DNA of 50,845 nt from [Collinsella] massiliensis. GTDB lineage: Bacteria > Actinomycetota > Coriobacteriia > Coriobacteriales > Coriobacteriaceae. The first letter of the stretch is position 1, and each line of letters opens with the position of its first letter. The translations under genes were made by a program, and so were the position numbers. Of the stretch, positions 3,352-11,377 are shown in pieces. The notes under the pieces are model-generated. The model was not told the DNA's origin and made no database searches. It saw only the letters and a program-made list of their open reading frames with translations. The stretch lies in NCBI GenBank assembly GCA_000333815.1, contig CAPI01000011.1, forward strand, positions 1-50,845, written 5' to 3'.

Positions 3352-3365
3352 GATCTTCCTTCCTT

Positions 3366-3514
3366 GCGTCATAAAGGGACGGGTTCAAAACGTTACTTTT
3401 TGCTACATTTGGGGACAGGCTTTGGTCCTGCCGCGCGGGGCGCCGCCCGATGCGTCATAAAGGGACGGGTTCAAAACGTTACCTTTTACATCACGTTGGA
3501 CCCGTCCCTTTTTG
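3366..3514. repeat. GGGACGGGTTC repeat locus 1
   Basis: Two 31-bp direct copies starting GCGTCATAAAGGGACGGG lie at 3366-3396 and 3452-3482. An inverted unit, GGACCCGTCCCTTTTT, lies at about 3499-3514. The second and third units can form a hairpin with stem AAAGGGACGGGTYC. This would also serve as a terminator for the leftward gene ending at 3528. The same core recurs at 13704-13803 and inside the coding sequence at 33912-33977. Confidence 0.75.
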
Positions 3515-3527
3515 CACGCGGGGCGGG

Positions 3528-3746
3528 TCAGCGCGATACGTTCCACAGCATAACAATCATGCCGAGGGACAGCACCGCCATCACGACGATCCAGATGAGC
3601 ATCTCGACGAGCGACATGCCCGCGCGCACCACCGGGTTCTTCGGCGCGGGTTGCGTCGGCCGGTCGTACGGGCTCGCATAGGCAAGCCCCGTGGTGCGCG
3701 CCGCGGTCGGGCGGAGTTCACGCTGCTGCTTGTTCGTGGTCTTCAT
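3528..3746 (-). CDS. 72-aa membrane protein with a prepilin-like motif
   Basis: The start MKTTNK follows a strong AGGAGG eight bases upstream; the in-frame GTG at 3755 is too close to that site. Residues 1-44 are polar and Pro/Arg-rich. They are followed by GMSLVEMLIWIVVMAVLSLG, a hydrophobic helix near the C-terminus. The G-M-S-L-V-E pattern, with Glu at +5 after a Gly, resembles a type IV prepilin cleavage site, but only 26-28 residues follow it. It could equally be a plain tail-anchored protein. It stands alone, with the ABC operon downstream and mutT-vsr divergent upstream. No family recognised. Confidence 0.65.
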   Translation of the reverse strand: MKTTNKQQRELRPTAARTTGLAYASPYDRPTQPAPKNPVVRAGMSLVEMLIWIVVMAVLSLGMIVMLWNVSR

Positions 3747-3874
3747 CCGAACCACCTCCTAAGCATATCCTCGCAGGAGGGGGTCGGCGGTGCCATCGAT
3801 TTGCCTTACGCTTGGATTGCGTTTTTGTAAGGTTTGCTACCATAGGGCACGCAGGCGAACGCGAGAGGAGCCCC

Positions 3875-4843
3875 ATGAAAACGATCCGCGTGGCAGCGGG
3901 GATCATCTGCGATGACGGGCGCGGCGAAGACCGCGCGGGCGGCGCGGAAGGCGCGGGCACGACGGTCAACGCAAACACGGCGGCCAACGCAGGCACGGCG
4001 GCGGGCGCACCCGCGGCCGCGTCCGAGCCCGCTGCCGATCGCGTGCTCGCCGTGCAGCGCGGCTACGGCGACATGAAGGGGCTCTGGGAGTTCCCAGGCG
4101 GCAAGCTGGAGCGCGGCGAGACCGCCGCGGACGCCTGCCGGCGCGAGCTCGCCGAGGAGCTCAAAGTGCGCATCACCGACCTGCAGGATATCTACACCGT
4201 GGAGTACGACTACCCCGATTTCCACCTCTCCATGGAGTGCTTCCTCTGCCGCATCGAGGAGGGCGAGCCCCAGAAGAGCGACCGCCAGCTCCAGATCCGC
4301 TGGGTCGAGCGGCGCTCGCTCGCCACGCTCACGTGGATGCCCGCCGACGTCGAGCTCGTCCACGCCCTCGCCGACGCCGAGAGCCGCGAGGACCTGCGCG
4401 CGCTCGCGAAGCGCCGCCATGACAGCCGCCATTCCATGCAGGGCAACAAGCGGCAGAACACCAAGCCCGAGCTGCTCGTGCGCCAACGCCTGCGCGCAGC
4501 AGGGCTCACCGGCTACCGCCTGCAGTGGAAGAAGGCACCCGGTCGCCCGGACATCGCCTTCCCGGGGCGCAAGGTCGCCATCTTCGTGAACGGCTGCTTC
4601 TGGCACCGCTGCCCGCACTGCAACCCGTCCATGCCGCGCCGCAACACCGAGTTCTGGGAGGCGAAGTTCCGCCGCAACGTGGAGCGCGACCAACGCGCCA
4701 TCGCGGAGCTCGAGGCCATGGGGTGGACGCCCATCACCATCTGGGAGTGCGAACTCAAGCGCGACCGCATCGACGAGACCATGGCGCGCGTCATCGAGCA
4801 GGTGCGCGCGGCGGAGCAACCGCGGCGGACGGGCAAGGTATAG
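3875..4843 (+). CDS. MutT/NUDIX hydrolase fused to Vsr mismatch endonuclease
   Basis: One 322-aa frame carries two DNA-maintenance domains. Residues 1-165 are a MutT-like NUDIX domain (8-oxo-dGTP pyrophosphatase type). Its box runs G76-KLERGE-...-RELAEE. An Ala/Gly/Thr-rich insert of about 40 residues (about 14-54) lies between the first strand and LAVQRGYGDMKGLWEFPGG. Residues 185-312 match very-short-patch-repair endonuclease: NTKPELLVRQRL, GRPDIAFPGRKVAIFVNGCF, H244, C246 and C249, TEFWEAKFRRNVERDQ and IWECELK. D226 is the expected catalytic aspartate. The start ATG has GAGAGGAG five bases upstream. Vsr normally acts at T:G mismatches made by deamination at cytosine-methylation sites, but no cytosine methyltransferase is in this window. 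No frameshift or stop separates the halves. Confidence 0.9.
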   Translation: MKTIRVAAGIICDDGRGEDRAGGAEGAGTTVNANTAANAGTAAGAPAAASEPAADRVLAVQRGYGDMKGLWEFPGGKLERGETAADACRRELAEELKVRITDLQDIYTVEYDYPDFHLSMECFLCRIEEGEPQKSDRQLQIRWVERRSLATLTWMPADVELVHALADAESREDLRALAKRRHDSRHSMQGNKRQNTKPELLVRQRLRAAGLTGYRLQWKKAPGRPDIAFPGRKVAIFVNGCFWHRCPHCNPSMPRRNTEFWEAKFRRNVERDQRAIAELEAMGWTPITIWECELKRDRIDETMARVIEQVRAAEQPRRTGKV

Positions 4844-7712: not shown

Positions 7713-7726
7713 TCGGTTATTTGGCC

Positions 7727-7756
7727 TTGACCCCCCCCTCGCGCGCTCACTACACT
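7727..7756 (+). promoter_or_regulatory. Sigma-70-type promoter for the LRR surface protein
   Basis: TTGACC (7727-7732) and TACACT (7751-7756) are separated by 18 bp. The start codon is 52 nt downstream of the -10. Confidence 0.5.
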
Positions 7757-7807
7757 GGTAGCGACTGCACCACAATGCGCATACCTAGCTGGGAACTTGG
7801 GGGGACT

Positions 7808-10800
7808 ATGAGAAGGACGAGAAAACTGCTCGCAGCAATCATGCTCTGCGTGGTCGCACTGCTAGCACCCGCCATCGCATTCGCTGCGGCGGAAGGCTCG
7901 CTGGCAGCGACCCTTTCGAGCGATCGCGATAGCTACGCAGCAGGAGACACCGCAACGTTCACGCTCGAGCTCATCAACGACGGCACCGCGCCGATCACCG
8001 ACGTCGCGTATCGCTTCGAGCTCCCCGAAGGCGTGACGCTCGCAGAGGGTTCTCAGCTCAATGGCTCTATCAGCGCCATCGACGCCGGCAACAGCGCCGA
8101 AGCTGCCATCCAGGTCGTGCTGCCGGATCGCGAGCAGGGTGGGGAGCCCGGCGATACCGAGGATGACGGCGAGCAAACGCCTCCCTCCAGCGAGGACGGG
8201 CAGACAGGTAATGAGAGCCAGCCCGCAACGGATACGGGTGCTGCGGACACCGGCCTCCCGGGTACGGGCAACACCCTCGCCATCGTGGCGCTCGCGCTCG
8301 CCGCAGGCGGCTGCGTCGCGCTCTTCGCGGGCAAGCGCTTGCATAACTCGAACGCCTCACTCGTCATCATCGGTACCGTCGCACTCGCGGCTACGCTCGC
8401 TTGCGGCGCGATGACAAGCACGGCATACGCCGCCGAAGCCACTCAAACGCTCACCTGCAGCAAAACCGTCACGGTCGATGGCCAAGACCTCACCGTCCAG
8501 GCCACCATCACCTACATGGTTGCCGACGAGCCGGAAGAGCCCGATCCAGGCGACACGACACCCATCACGCGCGGCGAATGGCTCGCGAAACTCCTCAACG
8601 CGACGAATACCGGCGATTTCGAAGCCGATCCCGCCGCCGATGCTGCATGCCCCTTCACCGACATCGCGGACAGTCCGTATGCAGAGCAGATCAAGACCGC
8701 GTATGCGCTGGGTTCGCTACCCGATGACATCGCTAACGCGGACACGTTCTCCCCCGACGAGCCCGCTACGCGCGACTTCATGTTCTCGACCGCCATGCTG
8801 CACGCCGGCTTCTATGACACCGGTGCCGGCCTGGACGCCAGCGACGCGGATGCCGCAACCCATCCGAGCCTCCTGCAGATCGCGGTGGAGCAGGGCATCG
8901 CCGAGCTCGACGAGAACGGTGCGCTGCGCCCGCAGGATGCTGCCACGGTATCCGAGGCGGATACGGTCGCAGGGCGCATCGCCGCACTCGACTTCGACAC
9001 GGATGCGCCCGCCGGCGGCGACCCCGTCGTGAACTACGCGCTGCAGGATGACGTCATCCTGCTCGACTCCTGCGAGCAAATTGATGACGACAGCTTCGTG
9101 CTCGATGTCCCCTATGACGAGGTGGCGGGTGTTGAAACCCAGCAGGACGACAGCACCACCACGTACCGCGCCGCCCGCGCGCCCTTTAAGTTTCCCAGCG
9201 TGGGCAGCAAGGTCGCTTACCTGGGCGATGGCGAGGGCGATGAGGGCTTCGCGGGCACGGTACTCTCGCTGCACGCCTACGAGGACGGCAACCGAACGCT
9301 CTTCGATTACGCACAGGCCACAGACCCCAGTGAGATCTACCAGAGCATCGAGGTCACCGCCACCGATCAGGGCGACCGCCTGGCCAACGTCGAGCCCGTC
9401 GATGGCGCCACCATTCTTCCCGCTGATGGCGCGAGTGCCCAGCAAAGCGGGCGCGCCATCGACATCAGCGGCGAAGACGGCTTTACCATCTCCTTCGATG
9501 ACCTCAAGATCAAGGATGCCGGCTCCGTCTCGGGCTCGGTGAACATCATCCCCTCCATAGACGTTGATTTCGATTGGGAGTTCCCCGCCACCATCAAGCG
9601 CGCTCGCGCCGTGGTGAATCTCGACACCACGGTGAACGTCACAGCAGACTTTGATGGCGTGGACGAAACGGTCGATCTGCTCAAGCACCCCATCACCGTG
9701 CCTATCGCCTCGGGCGCCAACATCGCCTTCGACCTCAAGCTCCACATCAAAGCCGACGGCTCCGCTGAGGTGAACGTCGAGTTCGACCAGAAAATCGGCG
9801 CACGCTACCGCAACGACGCCTTCCAAAAGATCTCGAAGACCACGGTCGACGAGGAAAACACGCATTGCGCCGTGCGCGCCGAGTTCGCGCTGGGGGCTGT
9901 TCCCATCGTGCAGCTGCGCTTCACCAAGATCGGTCTCTTCGACATCTCCGCCGAGCTGGGCGGAGCCGGCGACGGCGAGGCCATCACCCGCACAACAGGC
10001 ATCACCTGCATCGACGCGAACGCCTATGTGTACGGCAGCCTGTCTGTGGGCACAAACACCAGCTGGATGAAGTGGGCACACCTCACCTACACCAAAGACG
10101 TTTGGAAACAGGGCTCCACGCCCTTCGAGGGATCTTGGCATTTCGAAAGCACTGGTAAGGATGGCGCGCTCGAACTTGTGGACGAATGCACGCAGAAGGA
10201 CGTCCCGGGAAGCAGCGCAACGCCCGCCGAGGACTTCGAGTACACCATCGAGAACGACGGCGTGCACATCGAGCGCTACATCGGCGACGATACCGAGGTC
10301 ATCATTCCCGCGAACATCGAGGGCAAGCCGGTCGTGTACGCATGCCTGGGCGTCGAGAGCAGCCTGTCCGGCATGTACCCCACGGCGAACAATGTTGAGC
10401 GCGTCTCCCTAGAGGAAGGCTCGCAGCTCGTTGAGTTCCGCATCTGGAACGAGAGCCAGGGCAGCGGCGTGGGCAATTGGGAATACAAACTTGACAGCCT
10501 CGACACCGGCAATGCCGAAAAGCTTGAGGTCATCTTCCTGGGCGACGATCGTCCCGTAGAACTTCTGCTAGGTAATTCACCCGACCTGCGCGAAGTCAGC
10601 GCGCTGCCGACGAACAACCTCGACCTGCGACAATATCGGTACTTAGAGACCGTGGAGGTCAGCAGCACATACACAAGCTGGGACAACCTCATAAGTGAGC
10701 TCAAGCTAGGTGACCATCCAAACCTCACCAAACTATATGTCTCCGGAACGGATATCAGCGAACTCGACCTTTCCGGGTGCCCGAATCTGACGGTATTGGA

Positions 10801-11377
10801 TATCGGTAGGACGCCCATCGAAACGCTTGATCTTTCAGGTTGTTCAAAACTCCAGGAACTCTGGGGCGATCAGTGCTCGCTCACTGCTCTGGACGTCTCC
10901 CACTGCCCCAAGCTCACACTCCTCAGCTTTGACAGCCCAGCTCTCACGACGCTCATGCTCGACAATCCCATGCTCGAAGATTTGCTCATCAGTGACACTA
11001 ACTTAAGTGAGCTCGATCTCTCAAGCTGCCCGAATCTCACTACGTTGACCTGTGTCAACAGCCCCATCGATGAGCTCGACCTCTCCGCTGTACCAAAGCT
11101 TGAAAGCCTTGACTGCCATGGCTGCGACCTCACCGAACTCGATGTGAGCGCGCTCAACAACCTGACGTCACTTGGCTGCTCAGACAACCAGCTCACGGAG
11201 CTCGACCTCTCCGGTTGCCCGCTCCTGGAAACGTTGGACTGCGAGAATAACCAGCTCACGGAGCTCGACATCAGCGTCTGCCCGAACCTGAGATTCCTGC
11301 ATTGCAAGAACAACCCCATTGAGGACACCTCGGCACTCGAGGAGTGGTTCCAGAACGGCGGCCAAGGCGAGATGTAA
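7808..11377 (+). CDS. Large secreted/surface protein: internal LPGTG, SLH-like, LRR repeats
   Basis: 1,189 aa from the ATG at 7808, which follows a GGGGGG site. In order: a signal peptide (1-28, ending AIAFAAA); a DUF11-like beta domain (about 30-105); an acidic Ser/Thr/Pro linker; LPGTG at 150-154 with a hydrophobic stretch and Lys-Arg, a complete sortase-type signal in mid-chain; a second hydrophobic segment (about 181-200) ending in AYAAE, which looks like another export signal; an SLH-like domain (about 248-325, ITRGEWLAKLL...PATR); a beta-rich region (about 340-820); and C-terminal leucine-rich repeats (about 920-1180, LSELDLSSCPNLTTL type). It is probably displayed at the cell surface. 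The order looks like two surface-protein reading units joined. No partner genes are adjacent. Family-level function unknown. Confidence 0.88.
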   Translation: MRRTRKLLAAIMLCVVALLAPAIAFAAAEGSLAATLSSDRDSYAAGDTATFTLELINDGTAPITDVAYRFELPEGVTLAEGSQLNGSISAIDAGNSAEAAIQVVLPDREQGGEPGDTEDDGEQTPPSSEDGQTGNESQPATDTGAADTGLPGTGNTLAIVALALAAGGCVALFAGKRLHNSNASLVIIGTVALAATLACGAMTSTAYAAEATQTLTCSKTVTVDGQDLTVQATITYMVADEPEEPDPGDTTPITRGEWLAKLLNATNTGDFEADPAADAACPFTDIADSPYAEQIKTAYALGSLPDDIANADTFSPDEPATRDFMFSTAMLHAGFYDTGAGLDASDADAATHPSLLQIAVEQGIAELDENGALRPQDAATVSEADTVAGRIAALDFDTDAPAGGDPVVNYALQDDVILLDSCEQIDDDSFVLDVPYDEVAGVETQQDDSTTTYRAARAPFKFPSVGSKVAYLGDGEGDEGFAGTVLSLHAYEDGNRTLFDYAQATDPSEIYQSIEVTATDQGDRLANVEPVDGATILPADGASAQQSGRAIDISGEDGFTISFDDLKIKDAGSVSGSVNIIPSIDVDFDWEFPATIKRARAVVNLDTTVNVTADFDGVDETVDLLKHPITVPIASGANIAFDLKLHIKADGSAEVNVEFDQKIGARYRNDAFQKISKTTVDEENTHCAVRAEFALGAVPIVQLRFTKIGLFDISAELGGAGDGEAITRTTGITCIDANAYVYGSLSVGTNTSWMKWAHLTYTKDVWKQGSTPFEGSWHFESTGKDGALELVDECTQKDVPGSSATPAEDFEYTIENDGVHIERYIGDDTEVIIPANIEGKPVVYACLGVESSLSGMYPTANNVERVSLEEGSQLVEFRIWNESQGSGVGNWEYKLDSLDTGNAEKLEVIFLGDDRPVELLLGNSPDLREVSALPTNNLDLRQYRYLETVEVSSTYTSWDNLISELKLGDHPNLTKLYVSGTDISELDLSGCPNLTVLDIGRTPIETLDLSGCSKLQELWGDQCSLTALDVSHCPKLTLLSFDSPALTTLMLDNPMLEDLLISDTNLSELDLSSCPNLTTLTCVNSPIDELDLSAVPKLESLDCHGCDLTELDVSALNNLTSLGCSDNQLTELDLSGCPLLETLDCENNQLTELDISVCPNLRFLHCKNNPIEDTSALEEWFQNGGQGEM

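Follow-up and report, generated by a model that had tools for sequence, protein, structure and literature searches.

Why should a nucleotide-pool hydrolase and a mismatch endonuclease be encoded by a single gene? This question is raised by a locus in a window of 50,845 nucleotides (the whole stretch of DNA analysed, from contig CAPI01000011.1 of [Collinsella] massiliensis). An open reading frame at 3875–4843 on the forward strand (ATG at 3875, stop codon at 4841–4843), preceded immediately by a good ribosome-binding site (gagaggag), encodes a 322-aa protein. The initial annotation described this protein as one chain carrying NUDIX and Vsr domains with both active sites intact. The first point is borne out by the reading frame and profile matches, and the second by the catalytic residues kept in both halves (see below). 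The NUDIX hydrolase domain (3875–4375, forward strand; residues 1–12 and about 55–167) is matched by the Pfam families NUDIX_4 and NUDIX (PF14815 and PF00293) over residues 55–162, with E-values of 2e-17 and 1e-16, above the cut-offs. The Vsr endonuclease domain (4421–4813, forward strand; residues about 183–313) is matched by Pfam Vsr (PF03852) over residues 185–245 (E 2e-19; 69.5 bits against a cut-off of 27) and by TIGR00632 vsr of NCBIfam, whose cut-off of 97.85 bits it exceeds with 111.4 bits. The closest solved structures are 3GWY and 3R03 for the NUDIX half and E. coli Vsr (1cw0, 1vsr and 1odg; E 3e-21 for 1cw0/1vsr) for the Vsr half. In the AlphaFold model both domains are folded well (mean pLDDT 85), the strands and helices of the NUDIX domain having high pLDDT; a pTM of 0.60 makes their relative orientation uncertain.

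The NUDIX domain was also said to contain a low-complexity insert of ~40 residues, which we confirm at residues about 16–52 (~37 residues; 3920–4030, forward strand) as an Ala/Gly-rich loop between strands 1 and 2. Its DNA consists of 9-bp and 18-bp tandem repeats, pLDDT is below 50 across residues 21–48, and the alignment places it in the [Collinsella] massiliensis genome only, as it is missing from the relatives examined. The insert is a tandem-repeat expansion and is predicted to be disordered; a functional role was ruled out, given a repeat expansion in a single genome and the predicted disorder.

Relatives were searched for in 60 Coriobacteriales genomes (37 from the Coriobacteriaceae and 23 from other families of the order). 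A single open frame spans both domains in each of the 33 genomes sampled from five Collinsella-like genera of the Coriobacteriaceae (hereafter g1–g5), and in 30 of these the fusion was read from the DNA itself. This rules out an assembly artefact that wrongly joined two genes. The initial annotation also pointed to separate genes in close relatives as evidence against a genuine fusion: none were found in g1–g5, and only in a divergent genus of the same family (g6) are NUDIX and Vsr separate genes at different loci. Wherever its surroundings were read, the fused gene is flanked by htpG and by a gene for an FtsX-type ABC transporter. Its N-terminus, MKT(V/I)(R/H)VAAGII, is kept in relatives, and the interdomain linker ranges from about 0 to 110 residues. 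According to the trees of both domains the fusion arose once (support of 100 for the NUDIX clade and 98 for the Vsr clade, from a quick method on few columns), and the nearest relatives of the fused Vsr are Vsr proteins of the Eggerthellaceae. The dN/dS ratios (NG86), at about 0.1–0.4, suggest that each domain is under purifying selection. We found no report of a NUDIX–Vsr fusion in the open-access literature, a collection without most subscription papers; the architecture may already be listed in protein databases.

The Vsr half has the hallmarks of its family. The catalytic residues E25, D51, H69 and D97 (E. coli Vsr numbering) are kept in 114/114 aligned Vsr sequences, the F67/W68 wedge is kept in the aligned homologues, and nearly all zinc ligands (C66/H71/C73/C117) are kept, with Cys or His at the H71 position. 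All of these are shared with E. coli Vsr (V.EcoKDcm), from which the fusion differs in its attached NUDIX domain, its lack of dcm linkage, the absence of a Dcm-type genome signature, and Asn239 (4589–4591, forward strand), aligned with the catalytic-pocket residue His64; this Asn may be over-represented in our homologue set, since some loci were fetched with the peptide FVNGCFWH, but it is present in the window protein itself. His64 is not invariant in the Vsr family, and since active Vsr enzymes of relaxed specificity have Asp here, Asn239 does not exclude membership. V.NgoAXIII of Neisseria, one such enzyme with Asp in place of His64, acts on T:G in all contexts, and Caulobacter VsrA, likewise changed at His64, is unlinked to its methylase, as is the fusion; both differ from the fusion in having Asp rather than Asn and hosts with MutS/MutL, and the available parts of these sources mention no NUDIX domain (PMC6116569; PMC12907096). 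By analogy, the fused Vsr may act in many sequence contexts, as suggested by the Asn-bearing pocket together with the lack of linkage to a Dcm-like methylase. The suspicion that its specificity might depart from the Dcm type has gained support.

This lack of linkage requires some qualification. The initial annotation had reported no cytosine methylase nearby and proposed a search for dcm-like genes elsewhere in the genome. No C5-methyltransferase (PF00145) is present on the contig of the fusion, but the search revealed PF00145 genes in the same genome on two other contigs (C77 and C42). Across the sampled Coriobacteriaceae, no C5-methyltransferase was detected in 10 of 37 genomes; fusion-bearing genomes without a detected one include G011, G012, G015, G022, G023 and G029, each at least 98% complete. 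The fused gene appears to be freed from a partner methylase because it persists in such genomes. A Dcm-type VSP signature was not seen in the genome comparison: CTAG is 0.45–0.52 in two fused genomes versus 0.55 in a Vsr-free member of the order, and CCWGG is about 1.0, with no excess. Dcm-coupled VSP repair is not indicated: no cognate C5-methyltransferase adjoins the gene, and neither CTAG nor CCWGG differs clearly from the Vsr-free relative.

The group also appears to be devoid of canonical mismatch repair. Among the 60 Coriobacteriales genomes, MutL (PF01119) was found in none, and neither MutS domain I (PF01624) nor NucS (PF01939) gave a credible match: the single MutS match (G025) consists of two partial domains in a 3249-aa frame and was judged not to be MutS, while weak NucS matches in 13 genomes (about 20–27 bits) are short and partial and were judged not to be NucS. 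This agrees with a 2017 report that all analysed Coriobacteriia are without NucS and MutS–MutL (PMC5290159). Combined with the presence of Vsr in 37/37 sampled Coriobacteriaceae, methylase-free genomes included, this absence would fit a surrogate repair function, in which a fused Vsr of relaxed specificity, with an attached sanitiser, handles replication T:G errors in any context and partly replaces MutS/MutL/NucS. Vsr corrects towards C:G and does so without strand discrimination, so that T:G mismatches from replication errors would be repaired to the wrong base about half the time. Moreover, the other Coriobacteriales families, which are also without mismatch repair, have Vsr in only 9 of 23 sampled genomes, and there it tracks the C5-methylase (6/9 versus 2/14; Fisher p 0.02, relatedness not corrected). 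We thus consider surrogate repair quite improbable.

In the NUDIX half, the Nudix box GKLERGETAADACRRELAEELKV (4100–4168, forward strand; residues 76–98), identified by sequence and by alignment to E. coli MutT, follows the pattern G-x5-E-x7-REUxEE, with the catalytic Glu and Arg intact and the final, non-catalytic Gly replaced by Lys; the Glu and Arg residues are kept in 71/71 aligned rows. Asn119 is the base-recognition residue in the MutT structure. The equivalent position is Asp in 69 of the 71 rows; like the Asp of NudG and 3GWY, it is part of a PAD motif. The fusion has in common with the 5-Me-dCTP pyrophosphatases (i.e. 3GWY, E. coli NudG (Orf135) and mycobacterial MutT2) a Nudix box and an AD motif near the C-terminus, and with 3GWY a YPDF/M motif; it differs from them in being joined to an endonuclease, is about 27–33% identical to them, and might share their substrate to judge from such resemblance. 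Against a profile built from 31 fused NUDIX domains, 3GWY has the highest score (83.9 bits; margin about 7–11 bits) and E. coli MutT takes fourth place with 72.9 bits, and Bacteroidales homologues of the fused NUDIX score 122 bits with 3GWY versus 77 with MutT (profile). In Foldseek, 3R03, the MutT2:5mdCTP complex and 3GWY all precede E. coli MutT. Pairwise identities are 39% (3R03), 34% (E. coli MutT) and about 33% (3GWY), and in the NUDIX tree the reference enzymes sit on long branches without resolved placement. We know of no characterisation of 3R03. By profile score, the nearest characterised relative thus seems to be the 5-methyl-dCTP pyrophosphatase 3GWY, which is a lean rather than proof. 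This enzyme (Q5LBB1 of B. fragilis) hydrolyses 5-Me-CTP, 5-Me-dCTP and 5-HM-dCTP with kcat/Km of 4–7e6 (4.8e6 on 5-Me-dCTP; PMC5158307).

These comparisons bear on a simpler explanation, namely that a MutT-type 8-oxo-dGTP sanitiser and a T:G-repairing Vsr were joined merely to co-express two antimutators. The fused NUDIX has MutT-like features: it shares a homologous fold and the 34% identity above with E. coli MutT, from which it differs by having a nuclease as partner domain, and it is the best match in its genome to the MutT 8-oxo-dGTPase equivalog TIGR00586, the next match reaching only 33 bits. Since the genome encodes no other protein this close to MutT, activity on 8-oxo-dGTP is possible. 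However, its 78.7 bits fall below the equivalog cut-off of 97.9 (no protein exceeds it in any of the 15 genomes searched), Asp replaces MutT Asn119, and 5-Me-dCTP enzymes outrank E. coli MutT in both profile and fold searches. We therefore regard the antimutator explanation as unlikely, though it is the strongest competitor. The earlier claim that the two halves guard against different lesions (8-oxo-G and deaminated 5-methylcytosine) is probably wrong and weakly supported at best, given the missed MutT cut-off and a profile that favours 3GWY.

NUDIX–Vsr pairing recurs in the Bacteroidales and, with the genes around it, lends independent support to a connection with 5mC. The order to which a Prevotella locus (L047) belongs was represented by 247 genomes, in which this NUDIX subfamily has 11 copies: five have a Vsr gene no more than 10 kb away, compared to a rough chance expectation of 1.5% each, and the remaining six have no Vsr nearby. 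L047, from a Prevotella MAG, is itself an in-frame NUDIX–Vsr fusion of independent origin, and L059 and L111 have NUDIX followed by Vsr in tandem. Neighbouring genes include C5-cytosine methylases (L154 and L155 by Pfam, L059 by sequence motifs) and McrBC-type genes (L153 and L163 by Pfam, L105 by sequence); L047, L059, L105 and L111 were chosen by similarity and are illustrations, not frequencies. The m5C methylases near some copies further count against the antimutator explanation. Two side observations concern these loci. In rumen Prevotellaceae L163 (genome G063, contig C5, 129000–140000) and L105, the McrBC-type genes adjoin Vsr genes, that of L163 being of the DUF2357-PDDEXK_7 type. Genome G063 contains at least three Vsr copies.

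McrBC-type neighbours also raise the prospect of an anti-phage module, whose NUDIX part would drain 5-Me- and 5-HM-dCTP while phage DNA, if modified or mismatched, would be nicked by the nuclease part. Consistent with this, the NUDIX half is matched (6e-38) by PDC-S07, a candidate single-gene defence family in PADLOC, and 3GWY hydrolyses 5-HM-dCTP too (PMC5158307). By contrast, all g1–g5 genomes sampled carry the gene, at a conserved locus adjoining htpG where read and not in an island, and a viral sequence scan returned 60 loci, nearly all with Vsr alone and no full fusion among the matches. A dedicated defence role is thus very improbable, and the least probable of the explanations considered. 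Separately, because 4031–4378 matches PDC-S07 closely while belonging to an ordinary-looking NUDIX subfamily, some defence calls by PADLOC in gut bacteria may be housekeeping NUDIX genes.

Our preferred reading, held tentatively and at slightly below even confidence, is that the fusion is a conserved bifunctional guard that acts on 5-methylcytosine in two steps: (i) the NUDIX half, as a 5-methyl-dCTP pyrophosphatase type, would clear 5-Me-dCTP (perhaps also 5-HM- and 5-OH-dCTP) from the pool, keeping 5mC from random incorporation into DNA; and (ii) the Vsr half would cut one strand on the 5' side of the T in T:G mismatches arising from 5mC deamination, after which Pol I and ligase would restore C:G. 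This reading builds on the conserved fusion, the catalytic residues and purifying selection in both domains, the lean towards 3GWY, the altered His64 position and the recurrent pairing in the Bacteroidales. The fused genomes without a detected C5-methyltransferase argue against the 5mC guard, since 5mC would there need a source in salvage or phage DNA; the missing genome-wide VSP signature and the low identity to 3GWY also count against it. Pool cleaning is normally separate from mismatch nicking, and a conserved single chain together with an independent fusion in the Bacteroidales suggests that removal of 5-methyl-dCTP and repair of T:G are functionally linked, a connection of which we found no earlier report in the literature searched. 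The fusion is also a candidate for how gut Actinomycetota without MutS–MutL and NucS limit transition mutations.

Several other features of the window deserve mention. Directly upstream of the fusion gene and divergent from it, a small ORF (3528–3755, reverse strand) encodes 75 aa with one hydrophobic stretch (MSLVEMLIWIVVMAVLSLGMIVML), and its product is similar to small membrane peptides or prepilin-like ones. Between this ORF and the ABC transporter genes, at 3365–3514, there appears to be a small repeat element of the intergenic region: a pair of 37-nt direct repeats, separated by 86 nt and 97% identical, accompanied by an inverted partner of 19 nt that contains AAAGGGACGGGT. On the 3' side of htpG, an ORF at 7721–11377 (forward strand) encodes a surface-type protein of 1218 aa whose leucine-rich repeats follow the pattern LTxLDxSxCPxLxxL.
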